Below, piece by piece: positions 720 through 39,716 of a stretch of 64,000 bases of DNA. Position 1 is the first letter of the stretch. Each line of letters opens with the position of its first letter. The DNA is from Bremia lactucae (taxonomy: Eukaryota > Oomycota > Peronosporomycetes > Peronosporales > Peronosporaceae). The translations under genes were made by a program, and so were the position numbers. The notes beneath the pieces are model-generated. The model saw only the letters and a list, made by a program, of their open reading frames with translations. It ran no database searches and was not told the origin of the DNA. The stretch covers positions 305,415 through 369,414 of the forward strand of contig NW_027152195.1 of assembly GCF_004359215.1 (NCBI RefSeq), in the 5' to 3' direction.

Positions 720-1252
720 TGTAACGGACTAAAATTGCCCCTATGTGACACAGTCCCCGTTAAGTACACTTGGTGTACTTAATGGGATGGTTAATTACTA
801 AAATAAAGTTATTCGACCCACCACTTGGGTGTAGTTCACATTTTGAAATAACCTTGTGTATGTGATGCACATAGGTGCAGTCACATTAGGAGGGATGACG
901 CCTAGCGTCATCCGTTACGCGAGGTATTTAGAGCGATACGCTCGCAATACATATTAGTGTTATCTCCAGATATGACTTTTTTAATTGGTAAAAAAAGGTA
1001 ATTGTATTTAATACAATTAATAAAAAAATCATTCGGAAAACTACTTTCCACTAGGTAAGTGCGCACGACGAGCCGGGTTACCGCTCCCGTGACGACACTT
1101 TACTAGAGCACTTAGTGCGTTGGGTGAGGTCACTAACGCGCTTACCACAACTACCTCACTGCACGCAAGAGAAGACGGTCTAATCGCTTCCTCGCTGTGC
1201 TAGGGTGTGTGTCTAAGAAGAGCGTGGCCGAATTAGGACGTGCCCGCCTACA
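720..1252 (+). repeat. Family D 5' LTR (element 1)
   Basis: The LTR is 533 bp, begins TGTAACGGAC and ends CGCCTACA. It is colinear with 8035-8562. It contains short palindromes: aagtacac/gtgtactt near 762-780 and a 21-bp one at 893-913 with 9-base arms around cta. Leader sequence with the word ccttcccacgaccc follows and is shared with element 2. Confidence 0.85.
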
Positions 1253-1558
1253 CTTAGTAGCACTTAAAATCCTTCCCACGACCCGCATCTCTGCGTGTGT
1301 ACGTGAGGATAAGCCTCGATATCGATTTGACTCATTTCTCTCGCCTCTCCGAACATCATCGGGAGGTGGCAGGGCACTTGGCGCAGGGACTTGTGAAAAA
1401 GCCCTCTTGAGAAATTCTCCTGAGCAAAATGTTTCGCAGATGTAGCAGTTTAAGGCATTCGTGCTCGGACAGCGGAGAGCCGCGTCCGAGGCATGCGGCG
1501 GAATCCGTTTCTCAGACTCAGGATGAGGCGTGAGCCGCATTAGACGAGGCCCATTCGG

Positions 1559-4500
1559 ATGGACCCGCCCGAGTTCAATGAAACTGCAGCGCACACGATT
1601 CACCACTGGCTGTTAGCTATGAAGCAATGCGGTATCGCGCAGCTCATCGAGGACAACAGCCGATGGTGTCGTACGCCATGTCGCGCTTGCGCGGTAACGC
1701 CTCAGAGTGGGCTTACTCGGAGCTTATAGCGGACGTTAAGGCGTTCCCTACATGACGATCTCTAAGACAAAGATTCGCTCCATGTACCAGCCGCCGAACA
1801 ACGAAGTGCTGCTTCAGGCGCGGTTCTTTGGAGCGCAACAGGCGAAGCGATCTCTGCAAGAGTGTGTGCAGGAGATGCGGTCGCTGTCGGCGTCCATTAC
1901 CGTAGGTCCGATCCGGAGCACATTTAAGTACCACGTTAATGAACGGATTACGGCATGGCCCATCGCGAAGGGACCTTTTCAGAAAGGTGCCGTCGACGAT
2001 GGAAGAGGCAATCCAAATTGCCTTAGTTGAAGAGCAATCCTACAACAGTGCTTTGGCGACAGCTTGGTATCAGCCGTCGGCCGAGAGATCAGATGCCACT
2101 TCCATGGAGTTGGGCAATGCAGACGTTGTCTGCTATAAATGCGGCAAGCGCGGCCATACGACGGCTCGCTGCTATGCCATGCCACGATCCCTGCTGGGGC
2201 AAAGATGCCCAGCAAGAGGACTCCCTTTCGAAAGGGCGATAGCAAGAACCAGCGTGCGAGACGCATGAGTTCTGCATCGACCACTGAGGGGTCGAAAAAC
2301 GCAGGAGCGCAGTAGGGGCGGGACGCCCTACTGACGCGGACTTTGAAGCCTCCCCTACGTACAGAGTTGTCGAACAAATGGGTAGCATAGTCCCTGAGGT
2401 CTCGAAATGTCGATCCTCAATCCTGCTGGTCTATAGCGCTCAAGTACGAGGCTATGACCAGGTGATGACCCTCCTCGTGGATTCGGTTGCATCACAAAAT
2501 TTTGAAAACTTGCGGCTCTATGAAAGAGACCGGCGATGTTTGAGTTACTTTTGCCAGGATGTCAAGCGAGAAGAGGCGACCGTTCGTTTAGCGAACGGCG
2601 CCTCGTTAAGTCTGAGGAGTTCAGGCAGAACTCGCCTCAGCTTTAGTGACTTCTCTTGTAAAGAGAAGGTCGGAGTACTAGGAATGGAGAGTCCGTATGA
2701 CCTTTTCCTAGGCATGCCATGGTTGGCAAAACACCAACCATGGATAGACTGGCGTACACGCATAGTTGCGAGCTCTACGCAGGACACCGGAGAGGATGTG
2801 ATCCTGCGAGAGGAGTATGCAACTGATGTCGTGTCGAACACAGTTGAGGGATTGTTGACGGGATGTCAAACGTCAGCACTTCCTACCCAAGTCGTGGGGA
2901 CTGAGGTAGTGAAAAAGACAATGTCAAGTAGCCATGTGTCCCATAGTCCTGCACGGAGACGGGAGCCTGTGGCAGTAGACAGCGAGCTGATAGGAAGTCA
3001 AGAGTCGCATGAACCGGCACAGTGCCTAGAGCCTGGTGCGGTTTGCAGGGGTGCGTTAGCCAGGAGAGAAACGGCACCCGCTTCCCAGTCAAAGGTCGTG
3101 GTGACTCGAAGAGCGAGTACCCGACAGATTAGGACGATTAAAGGCACGTCTTAACGAGTGACCTTTGGATCAGCTCCTAATAAAGAGAACGGGCCTTCGA
3201 ACGAGGTGTTCGAGGCTGTCAAAGACGAAATTGCGGAGACATCCTCAGTGAGGTGCTCCGGTTAGTTTTTAAATCTGCCGAGATAGTAAATTTGCCGAGG
3301 AGATAGTAAATCTCCCGGAGATTTCGTGGGATCTGTTCGTTGCCGAATTAAAGGAAGGAAAGATTTACGAAAAAGGGTAACAAGTTCGAGAAGAGAGCTT
3401 ATTGGACTGTTGCTCGTCGTCCACAATGGACGAGAGCGTCCTAGAATGGGACAAAAATAAACGGTTCGCTGCTCAAGGCTGGAATTCCTTGAGAAACAGT
3501 CCGTTCTTTGAGGGTTCTGTGGAAACATCGCGATGTGTATACAGAGTGTGGAAACATCGCGATGTGTATACAGAGGAAGTGCCGAGCCGCCTACCAGCAG
3601 AAAGGGGCGTCGGTCACGAAATTGATTGGAACGTGGCACTAAGTATTGTGTGACCAGGAAATGGCCGTTGCCGAAAGAACAAGTCGATTATATCGACGAG
3701 TCCTCGACAAGCGGGACATGTACGTGAGAGCAAGTCGCCCCACTGCAGCCCCACCTTTTGTGTGCGAAAGTCCACAGGTGGATAGCGCCTGGCTCACGCT
3801 TTCAATAAGCTGAACACGGCGACCATACCGGCGCAAACGCCAACCCGCGGAAAGATGTTATGTTGAACTCCATGGGAAAGTCAACAATCTTTTCCGCGGT
3901 GGATTTGAGGGATGGCTACTATCAGGTATTCATGAGCGAGTCCAATGTAGCTAAAACAGCTGTAAGCACCCCAAGCGGTATGCTTCGGGAGCAACTTGTG
4001 ATGCGCCAAGGTTTGAAAACGCAGTAGCGACATTCAACCGAGTGGTGGCTCACGTGATGCGTCAGCACCGTGCCTACGCGCCCCATTACTTTGACGATGT
4101 ATTCGTGCATAGTAGAGCCGAGGAGAACGCAGCGCAATAGAATCGCACAAGCGTCATTTAGACGCTGTGTTGCAGACTTTGAAGGACGCCCAATTGTACG
4201 TCAACTTGCAAATGTGCGCCATAGGGGTCCCTGAGATACCTGTGCTGGGTTCCATCGTAGTTACACATGGTGTACGAGCGGGATCAGACAAGGTAAAATC
4301 GGTAAAGGAATGGACAGTCCCACGGCATGTGAAGTATTTGCGCCAATTGATAGGGCTCACTTATTCCTTGCATAAGTACAGCAAGAACTATTCTAAGCAA
4401 ACTATAACATTATCTGACCGACTTAAAACGGACGCAGAATGGGTTTGGTTAGAAGAACAATATAATGCGCTCACATCAGTGAAGCAATCTCTTGAAGAGA

Positions 4501-7029
4501 CACAGGTCTTGGCATTGCCAGACGCGGACTAGCCCTTAAAAGTCGTCTGCGATGCAAGTAATTTTACGATCGGCAGCGCGCTCATGCAGAAGGATGACGA
4601 CGGCGTTGACCGCGTCATCTCTTATCAGTCCCGGCTATTAAAAGCCGCGGAACTGAATTACCCTGTGCATGACAAAGAGCTACTTTCAATAAAGTATGCT
4701 TTTGTCAAGTTTCGTGTGCACCTATTGGGCACAGACCATTTGTGGTTTATACGGATCACGCATCACTGCGGACCGCAATAAACTCACCGCACTTTTTTTT
4801 TTCTCGCCTAGAATGGCAAGATGGCTTACATTCTTCTCTGAATTTAATTTCAAAGTTGAATTCAAGCCGGGTAAGTCGAATGTCTTGGCTGACGCTTTAT
4901 CGCGCAGACCAGACTTCGAGGTTAGACACAAGGAAAGTGTGTCTACTGCTAACGCACAATTTCAGCCGTCAGCGTTGGCAGCCATGAAGGCATACCACGA
5001 GACGAGCTCACTAACCTCTGAAATAAAAGAGAACTACAGTCAGGACGACCATTGTCGCCTGCTGTTAAATCACGTTGGTGGACGAAAGGTGATTCTTCCG
5101 TCGCACCTAAAAGCTAAGCTAAATCGCTTTAGCTACAGCGATGGCATGTTATGGCATCAGCTGTCACATTGTAATCCCTTGAGAACTTATGTGCCTCATG
5201 ACACAGATATCAAGCTGATGTCCTTTGGAGTTCCCCGATGTGCCATCTAGTGGGTATCTGGGCCGTGAAAATACATTCTTACGAATGTCAGAGGAATTTA
5301 GTGGCCACACCTATACATATGGGTGGCCAACTACATTCGCTCTTGCGAACAGTGTCACGCATTAAGCCTGCACCGCCCAGCCGTACGCCACTGAAGCCAC
5401 TACCGATTCCAACGGATTGTTTGAAGTCCGTAAGTCTGGACTTCATGTTGACATGACGCCCGATTATAAGGGTCGGACGGGGCTCGTCGCCTTTGCAGAT
5501 AGACTGAGAAAATAATGCATTTAGTACCATTTAAAACATCAATCACAAGCAAGGGGGCAGCTCTCTTGTTCCTGAATCATGTATACCGACTACACGGGAT
5601 GCTCGAGTTTATAATATTGGAGCGGGATCCACGTTTTACGTCCAGTTTTTGGCGACATGTGTTCGAGCTGCTAGGTAGCAAGCTCCACATGTCGACCGCA
5701 GATCATCCGCAGACCGATGGCCAAACAGAACGTGGCAGTCGAGTCGTGGCGGATGTCTTACACATGATAGCAACCCCCAATGAATGGAGCAAACAACTGT
5801 CCTTTGTGGATTTCGCTATAAATAACACGTGTCTACGCCAGGACGGGTGAGACCCCGTTTTATACTAACGGACTGCGCCATCCTCGGACACCAGTCTCGT
5901 TTGTGCGCAGCCCGTATTTTAGTGGGGGACGCCCCCCCACTATGCTCGGTACGAAAGAAGGACATAGTTTCGTTAATATGACGATGATCCATGAGGGTTT
6001 CATCTCAACGACAGAAACTTGTTTTAGCGACCCTGCCAATTTAGCAGTGGTCAATAGAACTACGTCCTAAGACCGACCTCTCGACGATGTCATAGGCGAG
6101 TTTGATGCTTATAGCGTGAGCGAGGCTCAACGCTTTGTGGATGAGCGATCAGCCATCACACGAAAAGGCCGTGACGCGATGGCAAGCGCACAGGAGAAGC
6201 AAAAAGAATATGCGGACCGAAATGGTCGCAAAAAGTAAACGCTTTCAGAGTGGGTAAAAAAAGAACTATTAAGTACTGCTACCCTATCTAAAAATGCAAT
6301 TTCTGTATTACCTAATGGTACTACGAAGTTGTCGCCGCATTTCATTGGGCCCTTTACAGTGGTAGAAGAGGTTGAAGACCTAAATTATCAGCTCACTCTT
6401 CCCCCGTATATGAAGACGCACCGCGTTTTTACGTGGGTCGTCTGAAACGGTATGCAGACCCAAATAAGGTCACATACCCCCATCCGTCTAAGGAGACCGA
6501 TGGTGACGCCGACTGTGATTCGAGCGTCGTTTAAGTGAGGGAGGCGGAGAAGGCGAAATGCTGTTGGACCAATCCTCCCACCACGAACAGGAATCGGAGA
6601 GCGAAGGACATCACGCGAGTAACGCGGATCCCTCAGCATTATCCTTTCAAAGAGGTCCAAGTGAGTCTTCAGGCGTTCATAACCCTGACGAGCCTTCGCT
6701 CGGACATCATAAAGATCCGAGGTCAGTCGCAAGGCTTGACCCTCGAGATCCACAATACGTCGTTCCGCATCGCTAAACTCCTGCGACTGAACATACGAAG
6801 ATAAAACAGCCGTTGTTGGAAAATTGCTTGCCCACCGCTCCGTGATAAAAAAAGGTATTAGATCCTTGTCCAATGGAGAGATTACCCGGAGAATTTTGAC
6901 TCTTGGGAACCGATCGATACGCTACATATTGATGTGCCCGGCTTGGCGGCTGCCTTTGAAAAGGAGCACCGGCTGAGTCCCGAGGCCTTTTCGCTAGTCT
7001 CAAATGGACTAGCAGAAGCAGCGTTGTGA
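1559..7029 (+). pseudogene. Family D gag-pol, broken (element 1)
   Basis: This is the former Gag-Pol polyprotein of element 1. Gag starts at an ATG at 1559 (MDPPEFN) and reaches a CCHC zinc knuckle, CYKCGKRGHTTARC, near 2130-2175. The protease active site near 2490 reads DSVAS where the intact copy at about 35560 has DSGAS, so a needed Gly is lost. The reverse transcriptase core near 4090-4110 keeps YFDDVFVHS. RNase H (VVCDASNF, HDKELL) lies near 4540-4690. Integrase has the DHPQTDGQTER region near 5700-5730, and a GPY/F-type region (GPFTVVEEV) lies near 6350. A chromodomain tail with DSWEP at 6898 ends in TGA at 7027-7029. Many stops and frameshifts separate these blocks. A 29-bp unit is tandemly doubled at 3518-3575, a local lesion absent from the other copies. 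Confidence 0.9.
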
Positions 7030-7903
7030 GAAGAAATAGGGGGCACAGTATCGCCCATGATTTCTTTCACACGCAAGCGGGCGCAATTAATATGCTGCGA
7101 CCGCTGTCTCATCGCATCGTAATGCGGATGAATGCGGCGCAAGAATTTCGCCTCGTATTGGTCGGGCATTTCATTTGAACGCAACACGACGGGGATCGAG
7201 AATATACGCCCAAGCGATTTTCCCTCAGCCTTCCACGAATTAAAGACGCCATAATAATTATGTGCATCTAGAAGAGCGACGCTCTTGGCCCGTTTAACCG
7301 AGGCCATCTAGATGGAGGGGGCATTAGGTGATATGCCACCCGTCACTTAGCTACGTTCTAAACGACTGTCTTGTGACACCGACTGAGCACGTTCACGTGT
7401 CGTCGGCGGAGCTTTAGGCTCCGAATCCTCTATGTCAGAACCATTATGGACAATGGTCTGCGCATAAGGCGTTGTGATTTTACCCAACGAAGAAGCAGCT
7501 GCGCCGTTATGGGCAGCATTAATGGTCGATGCGCTATCCAGCGCAGACGACGAGACTGCATTCGTAAATGTTGCTGTCTCCATATTGTGAGCAATGAAAG
7601 AAGTTTGGATGGGCAATAATGCGCCAATCATCCTTCCTGATGGGCTCGTTGTCCTTATCACTACTATGAGATGACAGCAACGATGTCGACTCAGTGTAGT
7701 CGACAATGAGCGACAGATCAACATCCTCACTGTTAAAATGGTATGGACCCTAAAGCCCCGTTAACGCGACAGCAGCAGTAGCTGTCGGCGTTTCGACTAA
7801 GGCATTGGACGCTGCCGGTGTGAACGCGGCGCGTGCGCTTAGTGCGAGGTTGAGTTGGCGTCTTTGCAGACGACCCACTAACATGGCCCCTTATAGGTGG
7901 CAT
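6488..7903 (-). pseudogene. Antisense ORF (aORF) of family D, element 1; unknown function
   Basis: A reading frame of about 472 codons on the strand opposite to pol, recoverable with a few single-base shifts. It starts at an ATG at 7903 (MPPIRG) with a basic stretch PRTKRTRR that could be a nuclear signal. An acidic/serine-rich part follows (SEDVDLSLIVDY, SSHSSD). Next is a conserved block near 7050-7200 (VVLRSNEMPDQYEAKF, then RVKEIMG), a predicted coiled coil near 6640-6790 (DVRAKARQGYERLK) and a Ser/Arg/His-rich end, RRSNHSRRHHRSP, stopping at 6488-6490. The last 540 bp overlap the pol linker and chromodomain on the other strand. The same frame is seen in elements 2, 3 and 4. I recognise no known domain; antisense ORFs near the 3' LTR are known in some plant Gypsy lineages. 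Visible lesions include one inserted base near 7650 and a one-base shift near 6570. Confidence 0.6.
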
Positions 7904-8034
7904 CTTTGGCGCCGTGCATGAAAACACAGGTCGCTAGAGTGAATGAGAAAATTAGCGGCTCGTAAAGCAGCTTGCAGTTCCTCCTTCCTCTTTGACGAAG
8001 TTTAAAATGAAAATTCGTTCTGAAAGGGGGATGG

Positions 8035-8562
8035 TGTAAAGGGCTGAAGTTGCCAAAATGTTACATAGTCCGCGTTAAGTGCACTTGGTGTACTTAAGGG
8101 GATGGTCAATTACTTAAATATAGCAATTAGACCCACTACTTGGGTGTGATTAACATTGTGAAAAAACCTTGTGTATGTGATGCGCATAGGTGCATTCACA
8201 TTAGGAGGGATGACGCCTAGCGTCATCCGTTACGCGAGGTATCTAGAAAGATACGCTCGCAATACATTTTTGTGTTATCTACAGCGATGACATTTTTGAT
8301 TAATAAAAATAGGAAATTATATCTAATGCGATTAAATTTAAGTTAGTCTGAAAAATATTTTCTAATTAGTGCGCACGAGGAGACGGGTTTTCGCTCCCGT
8401 GACGACACTTTATTAGAGTACTTAGTGCGTTGGGTGAGGTCGCTTAGGCGCCCACCACAACAACCTCACTGCACGCAAGAGAAGACGATCTAACCGCTTC
8501 CTCGCTGTGCTAGGGTGCGTGTCTAAGTAGAACGTGGCCGCATTAAGACGTGCCCGCCTACA
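8035..8562 (+). repeat. Family D 3' LTR (element 1)
   Basis: The LTR is 528 bp, preceded by the purine tract at about 8019-8034, and begins TGTAAAGGGC and ends CGCCTACA. It keeps the palindromes seen in the 5' LTR. The right edge abuts a truncated OTU-like coding fragment. Confidence 0.85.
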
Positions 8563-8818
8563 CCATATGATTAAAATAAACATTCTTCCGTTCACATTCG
8601 TTTCCAGCTCCGGCAACATATTTATAAAATTGAACGTGTTTTCTCCGTAATTCCGCTCTGAGGTTCTTTTGAACACTTTGGCATTCATCTTCTAATCTCC
8701 AAAGACTTATCGAGACGGTTCGGCAACCACAGTTTCCATCACCCTTGGCATCCTGAACCTTTTCAATGTGGGCTTTGGCAAACTTAGGGATATTAAAAAT
8801 GGATGCATGTTTTGACAA
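8563..8818 (-). pseudogene. OTU-type cysteine protease fragment, cut by the element 1 LTR
   Basis: The minus-strand frame (start at 8818) contains KGDGNCGCR, close to the OTU catalytic motif (Asp-Gly-Asn-Cys), followed by a charged helical stretch. OTU domains are deubiquitinating cysteine proteases and also occur in some DNA transposons. Only the N-terminal catalytic Cys region is present. The frame runs straight into the family D 3' LTR, and the matching C-terminal half (catalytic His) is not recognisable left of 720. It is therefore a remnant, of a host gene or of another transposon; I cannot tell which. Confidence 0.5.
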
Positions 8819-13600: not shown

Positions 13601-14982
13601 GCACCTCTCGCCTAGAATGGCAAGATGGCTTTCATTCTTCTCTGAATATTGCTAAGGCACAAGTTGAGTCGTCAACGTTGGCAGCCGTGAAGTCTACCAT
13701 GTGACGAGATCGTTTGCCTTCGAAATAAAGAAGAGCTACAGTCAGGACGAACATTGTCGCCTGCAATTGGATCACTTCGGTGGACGAAACGTCTCCCTTC
13801 CGTCGCACCTGAACGCAAAGCTAAATCGTTAGCTACTGCGATGGCCTGTTATGGCGTCAGGTGTCACCTTGAGATCTCGTGGTGGATGTATTGCGCATGG
13901 TAGCGACTCCAAAGGAATGTTGCTAACAATTGACCTTCATGGAGTTCTCTATTAATAACATTGTCCACGCCAGTACGGGTAAGACACCGTTTAATATAAA
14001 CGGACTACGCCATCCTTGTACGCCAGTCTCGTTGTGCGCACCCGCGTCCTAGCGGGGGGGGGGGCTCACTACGCTCGGTGCGAAAGAGGGACACAGTTTC
14101 GTCAATATGACGATGACCTGTGAGGTTACCATGTCAACGACGTAAACTTACCCTGATGACCCTGCCTGTTTAGCAGTGGCCATGAAACCTAAGAGTGTTA
14201 GTATGGAGTCACGGCAAGTAATGCCTTTTTGCTCCTAAACAACAACGATGTTTCGTTATTGACAACTACGTTCTATGGCCGACCTCTCGGCGGTGTCATA
14301 GGCGAGTTCGATGCAAAAGCGTAAGCGAGGCTCAACGCTTTCTGGATGAGGTATTAGCTATCACACGAAAAGTCCGTGACGCGATTGCAAGCGCACAGGC
14401 TCATCCAAGGAGACCAATGGTGACACCGACTCTAAGTCGGGCGTTGATCATGTGGGGGTGGCGAGGAAGGTGAAAGATTTCACTCCGACAATCTCTTCCC
14501 ACTATGACATGACTTGGAAAGCGAACGATATCACGGGTGTAACGCAAATCTTTCAGCATCAGCTTTTCCACAAAGTCCAGTCGACGTTTCAGCTTTTCGT
14601 AGCCCTGGCGATCCTTCGAGCGAACATCGAGGAGATCCGAATTCAGTCGCGAAACTTGACTTTGAGATCCCCGATCCGTAGTTAGCAGCACTTAACGCCT
14701 GCAACTGAACGAAAGCAGGATAGGCTGCCGCGAGTAGGTGGACATGATCGCCTTTCCTATGGGTGCCGCCTGTATTTTCGTGGATGCTGCTGGGAACCAA
14801 CGCATTCGTGTTGGAAACTGCTTACCCACGGCTCCGTGAAGTAAAAGCTTCAGATCCTAGTTGAATGGAGAGGATACCCGGAGAATTTCGACTCTTGGGA
14901 ACCGGTCGACGCCCTGCGCGTCGACGTGCCGGGAATGGTGTCTGCCTATGAAGAGGAGAAACAGTTGGAGCCGCTCCGCTAG
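10642..14982 (+). pseudogene. Family D gag-pol, broken and internally deleted (element 2)
   Basis: Gag is recognisable from about 10642, near-identical to element 1 over 10690-11090. The zinc knuckle near 11100-11150 reads WYKCGKRGNMMTCC, where the first Cys has become Trp and the His has become Asn, so it cannot bind zinc. Gag then joins the middle of protease without an active site. Reverse transcriptase is well preserved in its first part (12377-12610) and near 12925 (KFDDVFVRS), and RNase H at 13292-13615. The integrase core and GPY/F are deleted. The last block is a chromodomain end, WRGYPENFDSWEP at about 14875-14915, with a stop at 14980-14982. There are stops throughout. Confidence 0.85.
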
Positions 14983-15931
14983 TTCCAAATTGACGAGCAA
15001 GAGTAGCGTGATTAGAAGAAGCAGAAAGGGGTACAGTACCGCCCATGATTTCTTTCACACGCAAGCGGGCGAAGTTGATTCGCTGCGACAGTTATCGCCC
15101 TATCGCTATGTGGTGAAAACGGCGCAAGAATTTTGCTTCGTATTGGTCGGTTATTCATTAGAACGCAACACGACCGGGGTCGGGGAAACACGGCCAAAGG
15201 ATTCCCCGTAAGAAGTCCATGAACCGCAGATGTCATAGTAAATATTTTCCTCTATAGTAGCGCGCTCTAGGAGCGACGCACTAGTTCCGTCCACACGAGG
15301 TCATTTGAATGGAGGTGACATCGGTGGTATGCCACCTGTCACATAGCCGCGTTCGATACGGCTAAATTATACTGACTGGAAACCCTCACGTGCGGTCGGC
15401 TGAGCTTCAAGCTCAGGCCGTTCCGCATCAAAGTCCTCGTTGTGGATGACAGTCTGAAATACATACGCTGGGTGTATATCCAGCTGAGAAGCAACTACAC
15501 CTTTATAAGCAATCTTTTAATGAATGGTCGCTGCGATAGCTAGCGCAGAAGACGAGACAGGAGCCTTGCTGACGTCAGGCAGGCTCGCCTTCGCAACATT
15601 AGGCGTCCCCATGTAAATAGCAATGGATGAATTTTGGATGGGCATTATAGCGCCGTCACCCTTCGCCATTGGCTCGCTGTGCTTATCACTACTATGAGGC
15701 GATGGCGGCGGTGTCGACTCATTGTAGTCAGCAATAACCGACGGAACTACATCACAGTGCAAGTGGGATGGATCATTAAGTCCGGTCAATGCGCGACAGC
15801 AGCAGCAGCAGTAACAGTCGGCGTTGTAACTGAGGCGACGGCAACGTTTTATCGCGGCGCGTGCGCTACGTGCGTGGTTGTGTGGGTTTATTTGCAGACG
15901 ACCCACCAGCTTTGCCCCTATGAGGTGGCAT
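14430..15931 (-). pseudogene. Antisense ORF of family D, element 2
   Basis: The same antisense frame as in element 1. It starts at an ATG at 15931 (MPPHRG) and continues through SSA and TQPRT. The acidic/serine part (LTGLNDPSHLH, SPHSSDKHSE) lies near 15640-15800, the PDQYEAKFLRR block near 15110-15160, RVKEIMGG near 15040-15065, and the coiled coil RQGYEKLKRRLDF near 14580-14630. In the coiled coil most changes from element 1 are conservative (Arg/Lys, Ile/Leu, Ser/Thr, Val/Ile). The final stop of element 1 is not kept, so the 3' limit is approximate. Function is unknown. Confidence 0.55.
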
Positions 15932-19730: not shown

Positions 19731-20273
19731 TTAAAACTTGACTTCTTTAAGACCCCATTTGATGTAACAGAAAGTAGGAGCTAAGGCGCCCTCAGGGTAG
19801 TAGGCGTAGGCAAGGCCAGCCTCCGAGTCGCAAGACTTGAACATGTAGAACTGCAGCTCCTTAAACATGGACACAAGATATTTGACAATTTCCGGAGCGT
19901 CGGTCTTAAATCGGTTCAACGTTTCTTCATCAACGCCGGTACTCTTTAGGTGCTTCATGATCTTACGAAAGTATGACTTTAAGTACGTCTTAAGCTCAGC
20001 CCTGGTTTCAAAGCCAGTCTCGATGTAGCCAAACCCAATGGAGTCGTCAATGATGTTGTTAACCGTCTCGACAGAGTCGTCGACCTGAGCGTCATCACCA
20101 CCGAAGGCGTCACCGCAGCCGATGTCAACGTTATCGGCGCCTTTAGCCACCATCTTAGACTCGACTTGGAACATGCCAGATATCTCGTTGCCTTCCATAT
20201 CCTTGCACGGGATAACTTTGTTCGAGTCAGACATTACCTCATCTTCTGTAAACACATCCTGCCACACCAGCAT
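19731..20273 (-). CDS. Translationally controlled tumour protein (TCTP) homologue
   Basis: A single open frame of 180 codons without introns. TCTP is a small, abundant cytosolic protein that binds calcium and tubulin and is linked to growth control and GTPase regulation. The start MLVWQDVFTEDEVMSD fits the family N-terminus. The conserved C-terminal signature is clear: FKELQFYMFKSCDSE and YYPEGALAPTFCYIKWG, ending LKEVKF. The central mobile loop (about residues 40-65) is acidic and Gly-rich (GCGDAFGGDDAQVDD). The length is close to the usual 170 or so residues. It is divergent from the bZIP gene, with about 350 bp between starts, so promoters probably share that space. I see no damage. Confidence 0.93.
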   Translation of the reverse strand: MLVWQDVFTEDEVMSDSNKVIPCKDMEGNEISGMFQVESKMVAKGADNVDIGCGDAFGGDDAQVDDSVETVNNIIDDSIGFGYIETGFETRAELKTYLKSYFRKIMKHLKSTGVDEETLNRFKTDAPEIVKYLVSMFKELQFYMFKSCDSEAGLAYAYYPEGALAPTFCYIKWGLKEVKF

Positions 20274-20620: not shown

Positions 20621-23080
20621 ATGGTCAAAGCGCCCAAGGCCAAGAAGGCTGCGCTTCACTACCAGCCCTACCAAGCTAACATCGTACGTATCTTCAATGA
20701 AATAAGCATGTTCGTAAGGCTCTGATGTTTGTTTTGTTATCCTGCAGAGTAGTGAGAGTGATGAGCCGTCAATGGACCTTGGCATGACGGACATTCCTCT
20801 CCAGCTGGATCCAGTACTTTCGTAAGTCGTACTAGTCCAAGGACAATGCTGAGCTTCGACTATCGCTTTTTGCTTAATGTAATGTCATATTCTTTTAGAG
20901 GCCTGTCATCCAATATGAGCCGTAATTTGTGGGAAGATTGGAATGAAGGTGACGCAAGTTTCGATGTGAAATTTAACATGTTGACCGACAAAGTCGATAC
21001 TGCCAGTTCATCCGAAATTATGACTGATTTACATTCAAGCATCGGTTCTGGCTACGAGCAGCAACAAAGCGTATCGAACAGTACAATGCACCTGAACTTC
21101 TCGCCCAATTCTGAAAGCTCAGCATTTAGCACGACCGATGTCGCAGGAAAGCCTAGGCTGAACATTCAGCGGTCGCTAAGCGAAGAAATTGTCAACATGC
21201 TGGATGAAAACAACGAAGCGGCACTTTCTAAGCAGTTAGATGGAAATCAACGCGGTATTGCGCCCTCGCAGAGTTTAATGTTCAATGCAGACAGAATGAC
21301 CGCCCAGCATCAAAAGCTTCAGTCACAATATCAGCCGCATTCAAACACCCAATATTGGCAACAGTACCAACAGCAGTTACAATTACAGCAACAATTTCAG
21401 CAACAACAGCACATTCAGAGAGAAGCTTCAGACTTACACGTTGCTAACTGGATGAATAGCTTTGGCGTCAACCAAATTACTGCAGCTACGAATCCTGCAG
21501 CATCTACTAAATCGAGCGACCCATCCACTCACCGTGTTTTGCCAAACTCTGCAAATTATGACTATGCAGAAGCTGAAAAGATGGCAGCTGTTAAATCCAC
21601 CTCCTTCTCTTTCTCTCAGCAAAGTACAAGCTCCAACGGTGAGAGTAAAAAAGCCGTCGCCTCTGGACCAAAAACTAGCAGTGGTGGTCTCGCGTGCGGA
21701 AACGCCACAATTAAGACTAGCAATGCTGCCATCAACAATTCCTACATAAATATGACCTATCCACCACAGCATACAAATGGGCTAGGTCCACAAGGAATGA
21801 TGATAAATCCATTTTTAATGTTTCCTATGATGGGTCCACAAGCGATGAACATGATGGGAATGCCTATCCAAATGCCTATGGGAATAAATGTCAATGCTAT
21901 GAATTCTATGAATGGTGCAAATGCCATGAACAATGCGAGTGGCTTGACTGGTATGAACTATACGAACGGTATGCATGATTTAAGCGGAACGCCACTTTCA
22001 ATGCATTTGCAATTGCAGATGCAATTCCAAATGCAAATGGCACAAATGGCACAGATGAATGGAATGGGCTTGCATGGAATGTCAATGCCTTCAGGATTCG
22101 CAAATCTGCCCATGAGTCTGAACATGCAAATACCTTTGAATGTGCAGCATCAGATTAATCCTCAGAGTGGATTGGCAAATGACGCGAATACTACTTCTGA
22201 GTACTCGATGGGAATGTTTTCAACGGAGGGTAAATTGCCAAAACCTAATGGAGCTAATGAGGCTTTCGGAGGAGGATCTGGCTTTGTGAGCATTGCTAAG
22301 AAACCAGACGAGCCTGGAGTAAGTAGTATATTAAAATCGCTTATGACAGAAGAAGCCAAAAAGAAAGAAAAAAAGCTTGAGCGCAATCGAGACTCGGCTC
22401 GAGAAAGCCGCAAAAAGCAGCAAACCTACGTCGAGACGCTGGAAAACGGCATTAAGCGCCTGCAAATTAATCGTGAATTTGTCCGCTCGTATCAGTGGGG
22501 AATTAGTAGTCCAGGCTTCAGCTTTTTAACGTGCCCGAATTCTTTGCAGATGATTGATTGGAAGAATCGCATTAACGTAGTGACAGGTCAGACAGAGGCT
22601 TTTGCGAGTATTCAGAATCCCGCGAACTTTTGGTCTCTGATGCAGCTGAATCGACAGCGCCGAACTCTTGCGATGCAGCACGAAGATCGAGAGCGAGCGG
22701 TATGGAAATGCTTTGTATATGTGGGGCGGCAGTTGAATGGACTGCGCACTCGAGTTCTACAAATGCAAATGCTGCGTTCTTTATCTCAAAGTGCGTTGAC
22801 ACAAGAATTAGAAATGCTATTAAATTTATCAGCCGATCAGAAGTTTCACCTTCAAAGCCAAGCTCATCAAATTTTCAATCAAGAGGTTATGGAGCTTACG
22901 AAGCTATTTAAGATTTTTTTTGTGCTACGAAATGAAGCTCTTCGACTAAATATGGTGTCACCATTCTTGGAGGCCTACTTTCGCGAGGTTTGCTCATTTG
23001 ACCAGCTGCAAAAGCTTTTACAGTGGACAGAAACTCATCGTAGTATTATTTTGGAGGAGATTTCGCTGGATGAAACCTAA
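20621..23080 (+). CDS. bZIP transcription factor, Gln- and Met/Asn/Gly-rich
   Basis: A nuclear DNA-binding regulator. My model has three exons: 20621-20683, 20748-20821 and 20899-23080, giving 772 residues. Introns of 64 bp (gtacgt...ctgcag) and 77 bp (gtaagt...ttttag) keep the frame. The first ATG at 20621 is chosen because no in-frame ATG lies between it and the upstream stop. A Gln-rich stretch lies at about 180-225 and a Met/Asn/Gly-rich stretch at about 350-460, typical of activation regions. The basic region LERNRDSARESRKK has the invariant Asn542 and Arg550. Leucines follow at 560 and 567, so the zipper is short. The C-terminal 190 residues form a predicted helical domain (QLNRQRRTLAMQ to LLQWTETHRS) that I do not recognise by name; oomycete bZIPs often carry long extensions. 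Targets are unknown. Confidence 0.88.
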
Positions 23081-24563: not shown

Positions 24564-25369
24564 GTCTATTTACCCGTTATGAGTAGTTACAAATTTAGTT
24601 CATAAAAGTGCAAAATAAAGACTTGTTAATTAAGTTTAGGGAACCGTTAGTCTTCCATCAGTATCTGGTAAAATCCAAGCTAGAGACGTCTCGCTTGACT
24701 TGCTGCAAACGAAGCATTTGCACACTTCCCAACTTCTTGCGTAGCCGAATTTACGTCAAACAGGTACTGAATTAGCACAGCCGAGCTGCTTGTGGCAGAG
24801 TGACGTGCGGATGGAAGGGGGCCAAGACAGTCAAGGCTGTGGCGCTTAGATTCGATACCTCATTAAGGAAATTTCTGATCATTTTATTTCAAACAAAGTG
24901 GAAGCAAAAACGATGCTTCGTTTGAGAAGTAGGTCCATTAGGCCCGTCGCCTAGCAACATCTGGTCTCTTAAAGACTCTGCCAATGCAATTTACGTTCGT
25001 TTGGATTGAAAACACCGCTTTGATTTCGAAAAGCTTAATGCCAAAGGCCAGTTACGTCCGGCGTATACTGGCCTGCACTAATAATCCTTCGGTTGATTGG
25101 TGACGGCTATGCTAGTAGAATATGTGACACAACTAGAAAATTTGACATCGGAAGGTATATGATTGGCTAATTTTATGCATGAATATTGCAAACGTAGCCG
25201 AGCACGATATAATAGCACTGCCCCGTCGCTGCTTATCGACGTCAACTATTGGTGGTCGGCCCTGGCCTTTGCAGGGATGCTAGTGTGCAAAAAATCGTTT
25301 GTCAGGTGGTTGCCAAGACTAAGCAGACCGATCTGCTGTTTTATTCTGATGGCGACGCCTCGTTTCTTG
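24564..25369 (+). mobile_element. Relic of the family C antisense-ORF region
   Basis: From about 24900 to 25110 the sequence matches 41140-41310 in family C (shared words gccaaaggccagttacgt and gttcgtttgga). It is full of stops. The part from 24564 to about 24890 shows no clear similarity, though a minus frame with LGSVQMLRLQQVKRDVS looks coding-like. Everything from 24944 on is repeated at 30235. Confidence 0.5.
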
Positions 25370-25719
25370 TGTAGGCGGGCACGTCGTAATGCGGCCACTC
25401 TCTACTTAGACACACACCCTAGAAAATCGAGGAAGCGGTTTAACCTGCTTCTCTTGCGTGCAAGTGCGGTGGGCGCGTTAGCGACCTCACCCAACTAACT
25501 AAGTGCTCTGGTTAAGTGTCGTCACGGGAGCGGTAATCCGGCTCCTCGTGCGCACTTACCAAGTAGGAAGAAGTTTTTAGACTAATTTATATTTAATCGT
25601 ATCAAATATACTTACCTATTTTTACCAACCAAAATGTCATCTCTATAAATAACACTTAATATGTATTGCGAGCGTATCTTTCTAGATCTCTCGCGTAACG
25701 GATGACGCTAGCCGTCATC
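25370..25719 (-). repeat. Family D partial 3' LTR (element 3)
   Basis: It begins (plus strand) TGTAGGCGGGCACGTC, the reverse complement of the D LTR end, and follows the D LTR to the 21-bp palindrome region near 25700-25720. There it breaks off into antisense-ORF sequence. Confidence 0.8.
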
Positions 25720-25720
25720 G

Positions 25721-27136
25721 CGTCTAATGCCTTAGTCGAAACGCTGACAGCTACTGCTGCTGTCGCGTTAACGGGGCTAAAGGATCCATCCCACTTTAAC
25801 AGTGAGGATGTTGATCCGTCGCTCATTGTCGACTACAAAGAGTCGACACCGTTGCCATCATCTCATAGTAGTGATGCTGACAACGAGCTCATGAGGAAGG
25901 ATGATGGCGCATTATTGCCCATCTAAACTTTTCTCATAGCTCACGACATCGAGACAGCAGCATTTACGAATGCTGTCTCGTCGTCTGCGCTGGAAAGCAC
26001 AGCGACAGGTAATGAAAGCGCTGCCCATAAAGGCGTAGCTCCTTCTCCGTTGGGTATAACCACAACGCCTTATGCTCAGAATATAATCCATAATGGTTCT
26101 GACATTGAGGATTCGGAGCTCAAAGCTCCGCCGACGACACTTGAACGCACTCAGTCGGTGTCACAAGCCAGTCGTTTGAGCGTGGCTATTTGACGGGTGG
26201 CATATCATGATGCCCCCTCCAACTAAATGGCCTCGTTTAAACGGGTCAAGAGCGTCGCTCCTAGAGCGCGCTATTCTAGATGCACCTAATTATCATGGCG
26301 TCTTTAAGCCTTAGAAGGCTCAGGGAAATTCGCTTGGGCGTATTTTTTTCTCGATCCCGGTCGTGTTGCGTTCAAATGAAACGCCCGACCAATATGAGGC
26401 GGAATTCACGCGCCGCATTCATCCGCATTCCGATGCGATGAAACAGCGGTCGCAACGAATTTAATTTCGCCCGCTAGCGTGTGAAAGAAATCATGGGCGG
26501 TACTGTACCCCCTGTTTCTTCTCACAACGCTGCTTCTGCTAGTCCATTTGAGACTAGCGAAGGGGCATCAGGCCTCAGCTGGTGCTCATTTTCATAGGCA
26601 GCCACCAAGCCGGGCACATCAATATGTAGGGTATCGGTCGGTTCCCAAAAGTCAAAATTCTTCGGTAACCTTTCCATTGGACGAGGATCTCATCATTTTG
26701 CCTCACGGAGCGGTTGGCAAGCAACCTTCCAACAAGGAAGCGTTGATTCCCACCCGCATCCATTTGTGCAGGCGGTGCCTGATAGGAGTGGCGATCTCGC
26801 CCAGCTAATCGCGGCTGCCTTACCTTCGTCTGTTCAGTCACAGGCGTTTAGCGCTGCTGAACGACGTATTGCGGATGTCGAGGGTCAAGTCTCACGACTA
26901 CCTCGGATCTCGCTGATGTCCGGGCGAAGGCTCGTCAGGGTTATGAACGCCTGAAGACTCGCTTGGACTTCTTTGAAAGAATAATGCTGAGGGATCCGCG
27001 TTACTCGCGTGATGTCCCTCGCTCTCCAAGTCATGTTCGTGGTGGGAGGCATCAATCCGATAGCTTTTCGCCTTCACCGCCCCTTTCACCCGAACGACGC
27101 TCGACTCACAGTCGGCGTCACCATCGGTCTCCTTAG
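25721..27136 (+). pseudogene. Antisense ORF of family D, element 3
   Basis: The frame runs plus, opposite to pol. The N-terminal basic part is lost in the LTR deletion. Visible are LTGLKDPSHFNSEDVD, SSHSSDADNELMRK, VSSSALEST, the PDQYEAEF and EIMGG blocks, AERRIADVEGQVSRL with the following coiled coil RQGYERLKTRLDFF, and the tail SPSPPLSPERRSTHSRR with a stop at 27134-27136. Several stops and shifts break it (for example after 25925 and near 26315). Its 3' half is antisense to the chromodomain (pol stop at 26522) and linker. No known domain is recognised. Confidence 0.55.
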
Positions 27137-30100
27137 ACGGACGGGGATATGTGACCTCATTTGGGTCTACATACCGTTTCAGACGACCCACGTAAAATAC
27201 AGGGTGCGTCTTCATACACGGGGGAAGAGTGAGCCTATAATTTAGGTCTCCAACCTCTTCTACCACCGTAAAGAGCCCAATGAAACGCGGCAACAACTTC
27301 GTGGTACCTCCAGGTAGTACATAAATTTCATTTTTAGGTAGGGTAGCAGTACTTAATCGTACTTTTTCACCCACTCGAAAGCGTTCATAATTTTGCGACC
27401 AATTCGGTCCGCATATTATTTTTGCTTGTCCTATGCGCTTGCAATTGCGTCACGAACTTTACGTGCGATGGCTAATCGCTCATCCACGAAGCGTTGAGCC
27501 TCGCTCACACTTTTAGCATCAAACTCGCCTGTGATACCGCCGAGAGGTCGGTCACAAGGCGTAGTTTAATTGATCACTGCTAAACCACTAGGGCAAGTTT
27601 CGGTCGTTGAGATGATACCCTCATGGGTCATCGTCATATTGACGAAACTATGTCCCTCTTTCGCACCGAGCATAGTGAGGGACCCTCCCCCACTAAGACT
27701 CGGGCTGCGCGCAAATGAGACTGGCATCCGAGGATGGTGCAGTCCGTTTAAATAAAACGGTGTCCCACCCGTATTGGCTTGGACACTGTTATTTACAGCG
27801 GGCTCCACAAAGTACAACTGCTTGCTCCACTCTTTGGAAGTTGCTATAGTGCGTAAGACATCAGCCACGACTCGATTGACAAGTTCGGTTTGTACATCGG
27901 TCTGGGGATGATCTGCGCTCGACATGTGAAGCTTGCTACCTAGCAGCTCACACACATGTCGCCAAAAACCAGACGGTAAAACGTGGATCCCAGTCCGATA
28001 CTATGGACTCTGGCTTCCCGTGTAGTCGTTAGACATGATCCAGGGACAAGAGCGCTGCCTTCTTGCCTGAAATCGATGTTTTACATGGTGCTTAATGCAC
28101 TATTTTGCTCAGTCTGTATACAAAGACGACTAGCCCTGTCCGACCCTTATGATCGGGCGGCATGCCAAACATGAAGTCCAGACTTACTGACTTCCAACAG
28201 TTGGTTGTTATCGGTAGCGGCTTCAGTGGCGCACTGCTGGACGGTGCAGGCTTAATGCGCTGACACTGTTCGCAAGATCGAATATAGTTGGCCACCCATC
28301 TATATAGGTGTGGCCACCAAAATTCCTCTGACACTCGTAAGAATGTCTTTTCACGGCCCAGATGCCCACTAGATGGCGCATCATGGAGCTCGTGAAGGAT
28401 CATCAGCTTGAGATCTGTGTCACGAGGCACAAAGATTCTCAAGGGATCCCAAGGTGACAGCTGATGCCATAAAGGCCATCGCTGTAGCTAAAGCGATATA
28501 GCTTAGCTTTCAGGTGTGACGGAAGACAAAAATCTTTCGTCCACCGAAATGATCCAACAGCAGGCGACAGTGGTCGTCCTGACTGTAGCTCTCTTTTATT
28601 CCAGAGGCCAATGAGCTCGTCACGTGGTATGCCTTCATGGCTGCCAACGTTGGCGGCTGCAATTGTGTTTTGCTCTAGACACACTTTCCTGGTAACTTAC
28701 CATAAAAGCTGGTCTGCGCAATACAGCGTCAGCCAAGACATTCGACTTACTCGGCTTTTGAAATTAAATTCAGAGAAGAATGTAAGCCATCTTGTCATTC
28801 AGGCGAGCGGTTCGGTGAGTTTGTTGCGGTCCGTAGTGATACGTGATCCGTATTAACCACAAATGGTCTCCTTTAAATCCAACGCGGAAAAGATAGTTGA
28901 CTTTCCCACGGAGTTCAACAAAATATCTTTCCGCAGGATTAGTGTTTGCGCCGGTATGGTCGTCGTGTTCAGCTTATTGTAAGCGTGAACCAGGCGCCAT
29001 CTACAAAAGATCGGGCTGCAGTGAGGCGACTTGCTCTCACGTACATGTCCCGCTTGTCGAGGACTCGTCGATAATCGACTTGTTCTTTTGACAACGGCCA
29101 TTGCCTGGTCACACAATACTTGGTGCCAGGATCCAAATCAATTTCGTGCCTGATGCTCTATCTGTTCGTAGGCGGCCCGGCACTTCTTCTGGGATACATC
29201 GCGATGTTTCCACAGAACCTCAAAGAACGGACTGTCTCTTAAGGCATCCCAGCCTTGAGCAGCGAACCGTTTCTTTTTGTCCATTTCTAGGACGCTCTCG
29301 CCCATTGTGGACGACGAGCAACAGTCCACCAAGATCACTTCTGGAACTGGTGTGACTATTTCGTGAATCTATCCTTCCTTTGATTCGGCAGAGAACAGAT
29401 CCCACGACATCTCCGGGAGATTTACTATCTCCTCGGCAGATTTACTATCTTCTCGGCAGATTTACTATTTCCTCGGCAGATTTAAAGACTTACCGAAGCA
29501 CCTCACTGAGGATGCCTCCGCATTTTTGTCTTTGACGACATCGAACACCTCGTTCGAAGGCCCGTCCTCTTTAATAGGAACTGATCCAAAGGTCACTCGT
29601 TTAGACGAGCCTCGATGAATTTATCTATCCGGTATTCGTTCTTCGAACACCACGACCATTAACTAGGAAGCGGGTGCCGTTGCTCTCCTGGCCAACGCGC
29701 CCCTTCCAAACGGACCAGGCTCTAGGCACTGTGTCGATTAATGCGACGCTTGTCTTCCTGTCAGCTCGCTGTCTACTGCCACAGGCTCTCGGCTCTCTGG
29801 GACACATGGCTACTTGTCATTGCCCATCTCACTAACCCAGTCTACACGAGCTGGGTAGACATTCATGATGTTTGACATCCTGTCAACGCACCCTTAACTG
29901 TGGTCACTCGGCATCAGTTGCATAAGCCTCTCGCAGGAGCACATCCTTTCTGGTGTCCTGCATAGAGTTCGCAACTGTGCGTGTACGCCAGTCTACCCCA
30001 TGGTTGGTGTTTTGCCAACCATGGCATGCCAAGGAATAGGTCATACGGACTCTCCATACCTAGCTCTGTAAATTTCTCTTTACAAGAGATGTCACTAAAG

Positions 30101-30233
30101 CTAAAGGCGAGTTCTACCTGAACTCCCTCAGACTTAACGAGCGCGCCGTTCGCCAAACAAACGGTCGCCTCTTCTCGCTTGCCATCCTGGCAAAGCGACT
30201 CAAACATCGCCGGTCTCTTTCTTAGAGCCGCGA
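26522..30233 (-). pseudogene. Family D pol, broken (element 3)
   Basis: The protease C-terminal part (MESPYDLFLGMPW) lies near 30000-30060. The reverse transcriptase start (PSRL-type region) is near 29150. After FSALDLK (about 28880) the frame jumps to the RNase H end, so the YFDD active site is deleted. The integrase zinc region is intact in pattern (HELHDAPSSGHLG ... CEQCQ at 28250-28400). The catalytic part has SLDFMFGMPPDH, and later TDVQTELVNR where TDGQTERVNR is usual. GPY/F lies at 27200-27374, then a linker and a decayed chromodomain (FLVGRLL, VQWKGY) near 26700-26760, with a stop at 26522. It is not functional. Confidence 0.85.
29421..29484. repeat. 20-bp tandem repeat, three units, between protease and RT
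   Basis: Units of tttactatctcctcggcaga repeat three times. The same place has two units in element 4 (34712-34753) and about two in element 1 (3271-3318). Confidence 0.75.
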
Positions 30234-30234
30234 N
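30234..30234. other. Single N: contig join
   Basis: One undefined base separates the element 3 protease (ending in gccgcga) from sequence that restarts as an exact repeat of 24944 onward. It marks an assembly join and not biology. Confidence 0.9.
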
Positions 30235-33200
30235 CCGTCGCCTAGCAACATCTGGTCTCTTAAAGACTCTGCCAATGCAATTTACGTTCGTTTGGATTGA
30301 AAACACCGCTTTGATTTCGAAAAGCTTAATGCCAAAGGCCAGTTACGTCCGGCGTATACTGGCCTGCACTAATAATCCTTCGGTTGATTGGTGACGGCTA
30401 TGCTAGTAGAATATGTGACACAACTAGAAAATTTGACATCGGAAGGTATATGATTGGCTAATTTTATGCATGAATATTGCAAACGTAGCCGAGCACGATA
30501 TAATAGCACTGCCCCGTCGCTGCTTATCGACGTCAACTATTGGTGGTCGGCCCTGGCCTTTGCAGGGATGCTAGTGTGCAAAAAATCGTTTGTCAGGTGG
30601 TTGCCAAGACTAAGCAGACCGATCTGCTGTTTTATTCTGATGGCGACGCCTCGTTTCTTGTGTAGGCGGGCACGTCGTAATGCGGCCACTCTCTACTTAG
30701 ACACACACCCTAGAAAATCGAGGAAGCGGTTTAACCTGCTTCTCTTGCGTGCAAGTGCGGTGGGCGCGTTAGCGACCTCACCCAACTAACTAAGTGCTCT
30801 GGTTAAGTGTCGTCACGGGAGCGGTAATCCGGCTCCTCGTGCGCACTTACCAAGTAGGAAGAAGTTTTTAGACTAATTTATATTTAATCGTATCAAATAT
30901 ACTTACCTATTTTTACCAACCAAAATGTCATCTCTATAAATAACACTTAATATGTATTGCGAGCGTATCTTTCTAGATCTCTCGCGTAACGGATGACGCT
31001 AGCCGTCATCGCGTCTAATGCCTTAGTCGAAACGCTGACAGCTACTGCTGCTGTCGCGTTAACGGGGCTAAAGGATCCATCCCACTTTAACAGTGAGGAT
31101 GTTGATCCGTCGCTCATTGTCGACTACAAAGAGTCGACACCGTTGCCATCATCTCATAGTAGTGATGCTGACAACGAGCTCATGAGGAAGGATGATGGCG
31201 CATTATTGCCCATCTAAACTTTTCTCATAGCTCACGACATCGAGACAGCAGCATTTACGAATGCTGTCTCGTCGTCTGCGCTGGAAAGCACAGCGACAGG
31301 TAATGAAAGCGCTGCCCATAAAGGCGTAGCTCCTTCTCCGTTGGGTATAACCACAACGCCTTATGCTCAGAATATAATCCATAATGGTTCTGACATTGAG
31401 GATTCGGAGCTCAAAGCTCCGCCGACGACACTTGAACGCACTCAGTCGGTGTCACAAGCCAGTCGTTTGAGCGTGGCTATTTGACGGGTGGCATATCATG
31501 ATGCCCCCTCCAACTAAATGGCCTCGTTTAAACGGGTCAAGAGCGTCGCTCCTAGAGCGCGCTATTCTAGATGCACCTAATTATCATGGCGTCTTTAAGC
31601 CTTAGAAGGCTCAGGGAAATTCGCTTGGGCGTATTTTTTTCTCGATCCCGGTCGTGTTGCGTTCAAATGAAACGCCCGACCAATATGAGGCGGAATTCAC
31701 GCGCCGCATTCATCCGCATTCCGATGCGATGAAACAGCGGTCGCAACGAATTTAATTTCGCCCGCTAGCGTGTGAAAGAAATCATGGGCGGTACTGTACC
31801 CCCTGTTTCTTCTCACAACGCTGCTTCTGCTAGTCCATTTGAGACTAGCGAAGGGGCATCAGGCCTCAGCTGGTGCTCATTTTCATAGGCAGCCACCAAG
31901 CCGGGCACATCAATATGTAGGGTATCGGTCGGTTCCCAAAAGTCAAAATTCTTCGGTAACCTTTCCATTGGACGAGGATCTCATCATTTTGCCTCACGGA
32001 GCGGTTGGCAAGCAACCTTCCAACAAGGAAGCGTTGATTCCCACCCGCATCCATTTGTGCAGGCGGTGCCTGATAGGAGTGGCGATCTCGCCCAGCTAAT
32101 CGCGGCTGCCTTACCTTCGTCTGTTCAGTCACAGGCGTTTAGCGCTGCTGAACGACGTATTGCGGATGTCGAGGGTCAAGTCTCACGACTACCTCGGATC
32201 TCGCTGATGTCCGGGCGAAGGCTCGTCAGGGTTATGAACGCCTGAAGACTCGCTTGGACTTCTTTGAAAGAATAATGCTGAGGGATCCGCGTTACTCGCG
32301 TGATGTCCCTCGCTCTCCAAGTCATGTTCGTGGTGGGAGGCATCAATCCGATAGCTTTTCGCCTTCACCGCCCCTTTCACCCGAACGACGCTCGACTCAC
32401 AGTCGGCGTCACCATCGGTCTCCTTAGACGGACGGGGATATGTGACCTCATTTGGGTCTACATACCGTTTCAGACGACCCACGTAAAATACAGGGTGCGT
32501 CTTCATACACGGGGGAAGAGTGAGCCTATAATTTAGGTCTCCAACCTCTTCTACCACCGTAAAGAGCCCAATGAAACGCGGCAACAACTTCGTGGTACCT
32601 CCAGGTAGTACATAAATTTCATTTTTAGGTAGGGTAGCAGTACTTAATCGTACTTTTTCACCCACTCGAAAGCGTTCATAATTTTGCGACCAATTCGGTC
32701 CGCATATTATTTTTGCTTGTCCTATGCGCTTGCAATTGCGTCACGAACTTTACGTGCGATGGCTAATCGCTCATCCACGAAGCGTTGAGCCTCGCTCACA
32801 CTTTTAGCATCAAACTCGCCTGTGATACCGCCGAGAGGTCGGTCACAAGGCGTAGTTTAATTGATCACTGCTAAACCACTAGGGCAAGTTTCGGTCGTTG
32901 AGATGATACCCTCATGGGTCATCGTCATATTGACGAAACTATGTCCCTCTTTCGCACCGAGCATAGTGAGGGACCCTCCCCCACTAAGACTCGGGCTGCG
33001 CGCAAATGAGACTGGCATCCGAGGATGGTGCAGTCCGTTTAAATAAAACGGTGTCCCACCCGTATTGGCTTGGACACTGTTATTTACAGCGGGCTCCACA
33101 AAGTACAACTGCTTGCTCCACTCTTTGGAAGTTGCTATAGTGCGTAAGACATCAGCCACGACTCGATTGACAAGTTCGGTTTGTACATCGGTCTGGGGAT

Positions 33201-39026: not shown

Positions 39027-39287
39027 TCATGTGGTGTATCACCTCGTGCACCCGCAACGTTTTGAATTGCGGGAGAAGATGACAAGAGACAATAATGCGT
39101 CGCCCGCGGCTGCATGAACCGCAGCCGAAGTCGCTGCACTATTCGCATACCGCATGGACTTGTTAACCATGCGATAGAAATAAAAATGATGAATCTGACC
39201 AATCAACATCGTTTTTGATAAAGTGGTCTTAGAGTGACTACTCTTCCCAATGACAGTTAGAGTGATTGTCTTTTAAGGGAGGGGGGA

Positions 39288-39716
39288 TGCAGCGGGGTGA
39301 ATCGTTACATGAAATTAACACTTAAAGGTTTTTTATTAATATATTATCTGAAAGGTAGATAATATTAAAAGGATATTACTTTACATGGTAATATTCGTAA
39401 AGCTTTTCCATTGGTAGATATAGGCCATTATATCTACTTTCTCTGCGGTCCCGTCAGCGCTGAACGCGCGCGAAGAGAAAGACAGACAAGACTTTATCAC
39501 ATGTTTTGTATTAATTTATAATTAAATTAGTATTAAGTAGATAGACAAGATGAAATTAATTATATTAATACAGTTTTTAATTAATCGTCTTTGAAGCAAG
39601 TGTTTTAAAGAGAGTCTTCCTCTGCACACGTGAAGTGACGTGAGGCACCCCTCGCACTGAAGCAGTGCGAAGTGAACTTGTGCAGAATCGGTACAAGTCG
39701 GCAGTGCCCCGTTACA
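39288..39716 (+). repeat. Family A 3' LTR
   Basis: The LTR is 429 bp, preceded by a purine tract. It begins TGCAGCGGGG and ends CCCCGTTACA, and keeps the paired hairpins near 39650-39700. Confidence 0.85.

Follow-up and report, generated by a model that had tools for sequence, protein, structure and literature searches.

Gypsy retrotransposons in a 64-kb stretch of Bremia lactucae DNA (64,000 nucleotides (nt) of contig NW_027152195.1, here called the window) share a reading frame on the strand opposite gag-pol. Comparison of copies across the genome suggests that this frame is probably an accessory protein gene of chromodomain Gypsy elements. The gene would start just inside the 3' long terminal repeat (LTR), head toward pol and end opposite the linker that precedes the chromodomain in pol, with its last 575 nt in one family (D), or about 700 nt in a second (E), read on both strands. 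The telling point is that the strand protected by selection changes along this overlap.

The antisense frame in family D

The original prediction, made from the window alone, had described a shared frame opposite pol, lying between the pol chromodomain and the 3' LTR of elements 1, 2 and 3, and the frame was found again in all three. In element 1 it is located on the reverse strand at 6488-7903, with its start at 7903 and its stop at 6490-6488. It occupies 14405-15931 (reverse strand) in element 2, a diverged member of family D, and 25720-27136 (forward strand) in element 3, where the start is deleted; the positions in elements 1 and 2 were mapped from the genomic copy L033, and all three frames are broken. 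Self-comparison revealed a fourth copy, not listed in the prediction, at 31011-32427 (forward strand), which is a duplicate of element 3. The proposed open frame of about 470 codons is absent from all window copies; a 493-codon open frame is present elsewhere in the genome, in L033. Placement between the chromodomain and the LTR holds for the first part of the frame, but the rest of the frame faces the chromodomain and the preceding pol linker, and the pol stop of element 1, put at about 7030, maps to 6995-6997 instead.

Aligned to the L033 register, the element 1 frame carries 2 stops and 8 length differences that break it (its longest stop-to-stop pieces are 177, 141 and 137 codons). Element 2 has 9 stops and 11 such differences and no stop codon at the mapped stop position, and elements 3 and 4 each have 3 stops and 7 differences, one of the seven being the missing start. 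The latter two are identical across the aligned antisense frame, and self-comparison places element 4 on a tandem duplicate (98% over 5.3 kb, offset 5291). The pair of 5.3-kb stretches, 98% alike, spans 24944-35502 with a lone N at 30234 between them, and is either a tandem duplication or an assembly artefact.

The genome searched comprises 115.9 Mb in 220 contigs and includes the window. The searches with DNA and protein queries listed 79 and 99 matches, respectively, with 40 of 2621 and 92 of 6427 candidates scored, so that the family D copy counts are lower bounds; as the antisense frame served as the query, copies lacking the frame would escape. The alignment holds 58 copies, namely 30 loci from each search and the 4 window copies, less 6 duplicates (L031, L038, L041, L056 and L059, at the same places as other loci, and L001, which is element 1). 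The antisense frame is stop-free in 9 of the 58 in the register of L033, and L033 is the sole copy with neither stops nor frame-breaking differences across the entire 493 codons. Among the native copies examined, one is thus open throughout a frame for which many stops had been named as the adverse sign. Over their readable parts, the frame is without breaks in L034 and open for 461 codons, stop to stop, in L002. L033 is itself not an intact element, having a stop in the pol frame ahead of the chromodomain.

In antisense orientation, L033 has the ATG at 747, the pol stop codon at 1651 and the antisense stop at 2226, which leaves about 900 nt of the frame outside pol and 575 nt opposite it. The chromodomain segment is at 1693-1834, in a piece that matches Pfam Chromo (E 1.9e-8), and the antisense coiled coil is at 1947-2088. 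Third positions of the antisense frame lie opposite second positions of pol, as read off the alignment. The predicted fixed order of basic N-terminus, acidic/serine stretch, PDQYEAKF block, coiled coil and Arg/Ser/His tail was borne out. The L033 product begins with 8 K/R and zero D/E among 30 residues, continues with the acidic/serine stretch (20 D/E and 18 S among 148 residues) and the central domain, and ends with the coil and then the tail (11 K/R and 13 S among 46). On the sense strand, pieces of broken copies match RT_RNaseH, H2C2 and SH3_Tf2-1, with CCHC and RVT_1 below the cut-off. The elements have the Gypsy order with a chromodomain after integrase (Chromo matched in L033 and in family E) and are chromovirus-like, an assignment based on Pfam domain order rather than on a reverse transcriptase tree.

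In element 1, the frame beyond pol (6998-7903, reverse strand) holds the basic N-terminus, the acidic/serine stretch and the central domain, and 6488-6997, bounded by the pol stop, is read on both strands. Within the latter, the pol chromodomain segment lies at approximately 6814-6955 (forward strand; by arithmetic from L033) and the antisense coiled coil at 6628-6768 (reverse strand; judged from residues in the frame and a helix in the relative P0006). Element 1 is 76 nt shorter than other copies at 6812/6813, in the two-strand segment; an intron was dropped as an explanation by reasoning alone, since its length would break the frame. The 3' LTR is located at 8035-8563 (forward strand; matched to 720-1253 at 85%), begins with TG at 8035, preceded by a purine tract, and has its edge 132 nt from the ATG at 7903. 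An inverted repeat of the type ACGAATTT...AAATTCGT at 7990-8034 is kept between the purine tract and the antisense ATG, in L033 and others as well, and is only partly kept in element 2.

The protected strand changes along the overlap with pol

Stop codons were counted in 57 copies, with W_el2 (element 2 of the window) omitted and element 4 kept although it duplicates element 3. Beyond pol, the antisense frame has 71 stops in 16979 codons (4.2 per 1000), whereas each of the other five has 40-85 per 1000, about 10-20 times as many. The values per 1000 in the overlap are 6.1 for the antisense frame, 8.0 for pol and 34-59 for the remaining four frames. Stop counts alone are weak because the copies share an ancestor. 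Shared variants were compared with singletons in the same alignment, omitting W_el2, W_el4 and L017. The proportion of replacement to silent changes in the antisense frame was 104:66 for variants in at least three copies and 470:164 for singletons (P 0.0011), and the same test on three other frames gave P 0.92, 0.92 and 0.15. The coupled sense frame, which shares its third positions with the antisense frame, was lowered in the same way among common variants and was excluded because it has 50 stops per 1000.

The ratio of nonsynonymous to synonymous substitution rates (dN/dS) was estimated between element 2, which is 73% identical to L033, and 56 copies, omitting W_el4. Beyond the pol stop, where a value of about 1 had been named as fatal to the prediction, the antisense frame gave 0.58 (95% interval 0.43-0.78); the other five frames gave 0.65-1.00, with the coupled frame at 0.65. 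Third codon positions are also more variable beyond pol (0.102 versus 0.083-0.090; permutation P 0.01), a modest effect. The antisense frame is under purifying selection, and its codon pattern indicates that it is almost certainly protein-coding. The predicted third protein on the antisense strand is supported by the dN/dS values together with the one fully open native copy.

Within the overlap, the chromodomain segment has a dN/dS of 0.33 (0.13-0.76) for pol and 2.05 (0.98-5.16) for antisense, the coil segment 0.29 (0.13-0.60) for antisense and 1.80 (0.93-4.43) for pol, and the tail segment 1.14 for antisense and 0.58 for pol, the two frames being coupled such that low dN/dS on one strand tends to lift that of the other. 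Each strand's conserved part faces a tolerant part of the other strand. Because this strand-specific conservation falls in different places, it points to working proteins on both strands.

Family E, relatives in other species and other features of the window

Family E is represented in the window by a pol end with SH3_Tf2-1 and a chromodomain (37118-38182, forward strand; Pfam) and by antisense frames carrying the domain and coiled coil, which form two overlapping open pieces in different frames (37620-38622, reverse strand). An acidic/serine piece at 38772-38999 (reverse strand), with a similar piece in L070, probably forms the N-terminus of the antisense protein in this family. In L071, the antisense frame has 427 codons and overlaps the pol frame by about 700 nt, both frames are open over the readable parts, and the relative phase of antisense and pol in this family is the same as in family D. 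We pooled dN/dS over the three pairs formed by L071, L070 and the window copy. The antisense frame gave 0.51 (0.33-0.80) beyond pol. In the chromodomain, pol was at 0.30 (0.10-0.79) and antisense at 1.01 (0.39-3.74), and in the coil antisense was at 0.32 (0.18-0.60) and pol at 1.58 (0.85-4.14). A distant E-like element on the other strand (48048-48954) retains traces of a chromodomain and has an antisense region with a weak match; its pol dN/dS is 0.30-0.44 in the chromodomain, and the coil gives no clear signal (antisense 0.75-0.86, pol 0.85-0.92). Because the D and E antisense proteins show no similarity by profile or BLAST, only their equal place and phase point to a common origin.

Among the 150 listed matches to the family E coil, 40 agree in score, identity (76%), open frame (239) and a single in-frame TGA. 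They probably reflect a recent burst of near-identical copies in which the antisense frame is cut; such copies might be helped in trans. Another copy, L023, is chimeric: its LTR and antisense N-terminal part come from family E and meet the D antisense frame at the ATG of the latter. The junction is near 1495-1501, the open piece is at 916-1668 (forward strand), and the non-D part resembles window 38211-39627. At the junction the D and E antisense frames agree by arithmetic, with a net 7-nt difference upstream.

Three protein searches yielded 24 relatives (P0005-P0028), comprising 6 from Peronospora effusa, 1 from P. farinosa and 17 unnamed. For both P0010 (P. effusa) and P0024 (P. farinosa), identity to L033 is 62% in the central domain and 63-65% in the coil, compared to 44-46% opposite the chromodomain and 43-45% over the acidic stretch. 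When L033 is read antisense opposite the pol SH3 region, it matches P0024 residues 399-447 at 71%, which suggests, from this one protein, that the P. farinosa gene is also antisense to pol. No relative was confirmed in the viral contigs, prokaryote genome contigs and phage records searched. The AlphaFold model of the relative P0006, built with 22 sequences, had a mean predicted local distance difference test (pLDDT) score of 53.9 and was confident in the central helices and coil only, with a pLDDT of about 90 in the coil helix.

Outside these elements, Pfam matches identify four probable host genes in the window: a bZIP protein (20846-23080, forward strand), TCTP (19731-20273, reverse strand), an SPX-EXS protein (53862-56027, forward strand) and a Snf7-type (ESCRT-III) protein (53103-53732, reverse strand). 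Positions 42571-43429 read as N.

Known antisense genes, competing explanations and implications

Several observations weigh against an accessory protein gene. The family D strand switch and the dN/dS beyond pol depend on one outgroup copy, element 2, and over the whole overlap dN/dS is 0.90 for antisense and 0.63 for pol, only the coil segment being low. A tree model with one dN/dS value (omega) gave 0.94; omega on internal branches was 0.78 (0.85-1.32 in other frames), with a gain in log-likelihood of merely 2.1 over an omega of 1. In the closer relatives P0005 and P0006, conservation is higher opposite the chromodomain than in the coil. The recently spread E subfamily seems to manage without an intact antisense coil, which speaks against essentiality. 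The antisense protein has no significant Pfam, PDB or fold match: the best PDB sequence match has an E of 0.059, a few weak coiled-coil Pfam matches are below the cut-off, and Foldseek against PDB and viral models returned nothing significant. Scanning with the oomycete core promoter motif did no better than shuffles. The antisense transcript and protein are predictions from sequence.

An antisense open reading frame (ORF) beside the 3' LTR is already known from other elements; what appears to be new is the oomycete-like genome and the long dual-coding overlap. The available text of PMC7264820 describes such ORFs in plant LTR retrotransposons as aORF-3R, among them maize Grande gene23, whose product is reported to be nuclear, rice RIRE2 and PvRetro13. 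Like these, the present frame is antisense to gag-pol, lies between pol and the 3' LTR and adjoins the latter, occurs in many family copies, is conserved (0.58 beyond pol versus 0.63 for the pol frame in the overlap) and has no recognised domain, a likeness of position and description rather than of compared protein sequences. It differs in its oomycete-like host genome and, as far as the plant ORFs are described there, in that its last 575-700 nt overlap pol with a switch of the selected strand. Retand ORFs with a TRP28 domain are predicted to bind DNA (PMC11963269, available part). TRP28 (PF04195) had no match in Pfam scans of family D and E pieces, and Retand elements, as described there, are not chromoviruses and have a long extra region between pol and LTR. 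Boty of Botrytis cinerea, with its additional antisense gene brtn (a title cited in PMC8365987 and a mention in PMC7264820), is similar by description, not by sequence, in being a non-plant Gypsy element with an extra antisense gene.

Among retroviruses, HBZ of human T-cell leukaemia virus type 1 (HTLV-1) is made from the 3' LTR and ASP of human immunodeficiency virus type 1 (HIV-1) overlaps env (PMC8781085, available part). These too are antisense protein genes of retroelements, alike in working rather than by kinship; they differ in position, and the bZIP domain that marks HBZ found no match in Pfam scans of the family D and E pieces. Chronos elements are oomycete Gypsy elements with a chromodomain at the pol end and a second, archaeal-type RNase H (PMC5348765, available part). 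The present elements share the chromodomain closing pol, but Gypsy-type RNase H alone was matched in them, in pieces of broken copies. The available description of Chronos makes no mention of an antisense ORF, and a literature search of titles and abstracts, covering few subscription journals, found no such ORF described for oomycetes.

We propose that the accessory protein would be translated from an antisense mRNA starting in or beside the 3' LTR; we consider such an mRNA very likely. With its basic N-terminus, acidic stretch, small helical domain, coiled coil and Arg/Ser or basic tail, the product would probably be a self-associating nuclear protein that controls the element's expression or handles RNA or DNA of the element, in a mode of action like that of HBZ in HTLV-1 and as proposed for plant antisense ORFs. 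A nuclear regulator is a serious possibility, though short of probable. Rather unlikely, in our assessment, is a different job for the same coding gene, as a component of the particle or integration complex (nucleic-acid chaperone, nuclear import or target choice). The basic start and tail and the coiled coil would suit this role, and plant reviews propose nuclear roles in transposition for antisense ORFs (PMC7264820 section 7, available part), but a gag with a CCHC motif is already present in sense orientation, and the sequence favours neither this role nor that of a transcription regulator.

Reverse-orientation capture of a host gene seems an improbable origin for the frame. Gene capture by LTR elements is known (PMC7264820 section 6, available part), but no relative with a known domain was found in a protein search of limited reach, and the P. 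farinosa relative too runs into antisense pol. A slightly poorer case can be made for a non-coding antisense RNA acting by silencing or interference, with the open frame as a relic. LTR-element antisense transcripts without a coding role are known (PMC7264820 section 8, available part), and the in-frame stop that 40 family E coil matches, out of 150 listed, have in common would fit, but in both families dN/dS stays below 1 outside pol as well as in the coil, and the protein is kept in other species. A regulatory antisense RNA is not needed for the codon pattern and may be an added role beside the accessory protein. It is very improbable that pol coding and shared ancestry of the copies keep the frame open by chance: stop counts of related copies are not independent and silent sites are coupled between strands, but the roughly 900 nt outside pol are still at 0.58 and the coil is conserved exactly where pol is free.

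Plants and a fungus already provide examples of LTR elements with extra antisense genes. Here, selection on the antisense protein can be separated from that acting on pol, since constraint falls at different sites on the two strands, and family E repeats the pattern within the same genome. This offers a route to show coding of such genes by sequence alone and predicts where to look elsewhere; gene callers may overlook one gene of the pair if they disallow long overlaps between opposite strands. We tentatively suggest that a long, ancestral dual-coding overlap may be general in oomycete chromodomain Gypsy elements, pol and the gene of an antisense regulator sharing several hundred base pairs, with interleaved domains facing linkers and an antisense N-terminal part that is exchangeable between families, as in L023. 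In that case, these elements would be an HBZ-like sense/antisense switch outside animals and plants, and such a switch in oomycete elements becomes testable.
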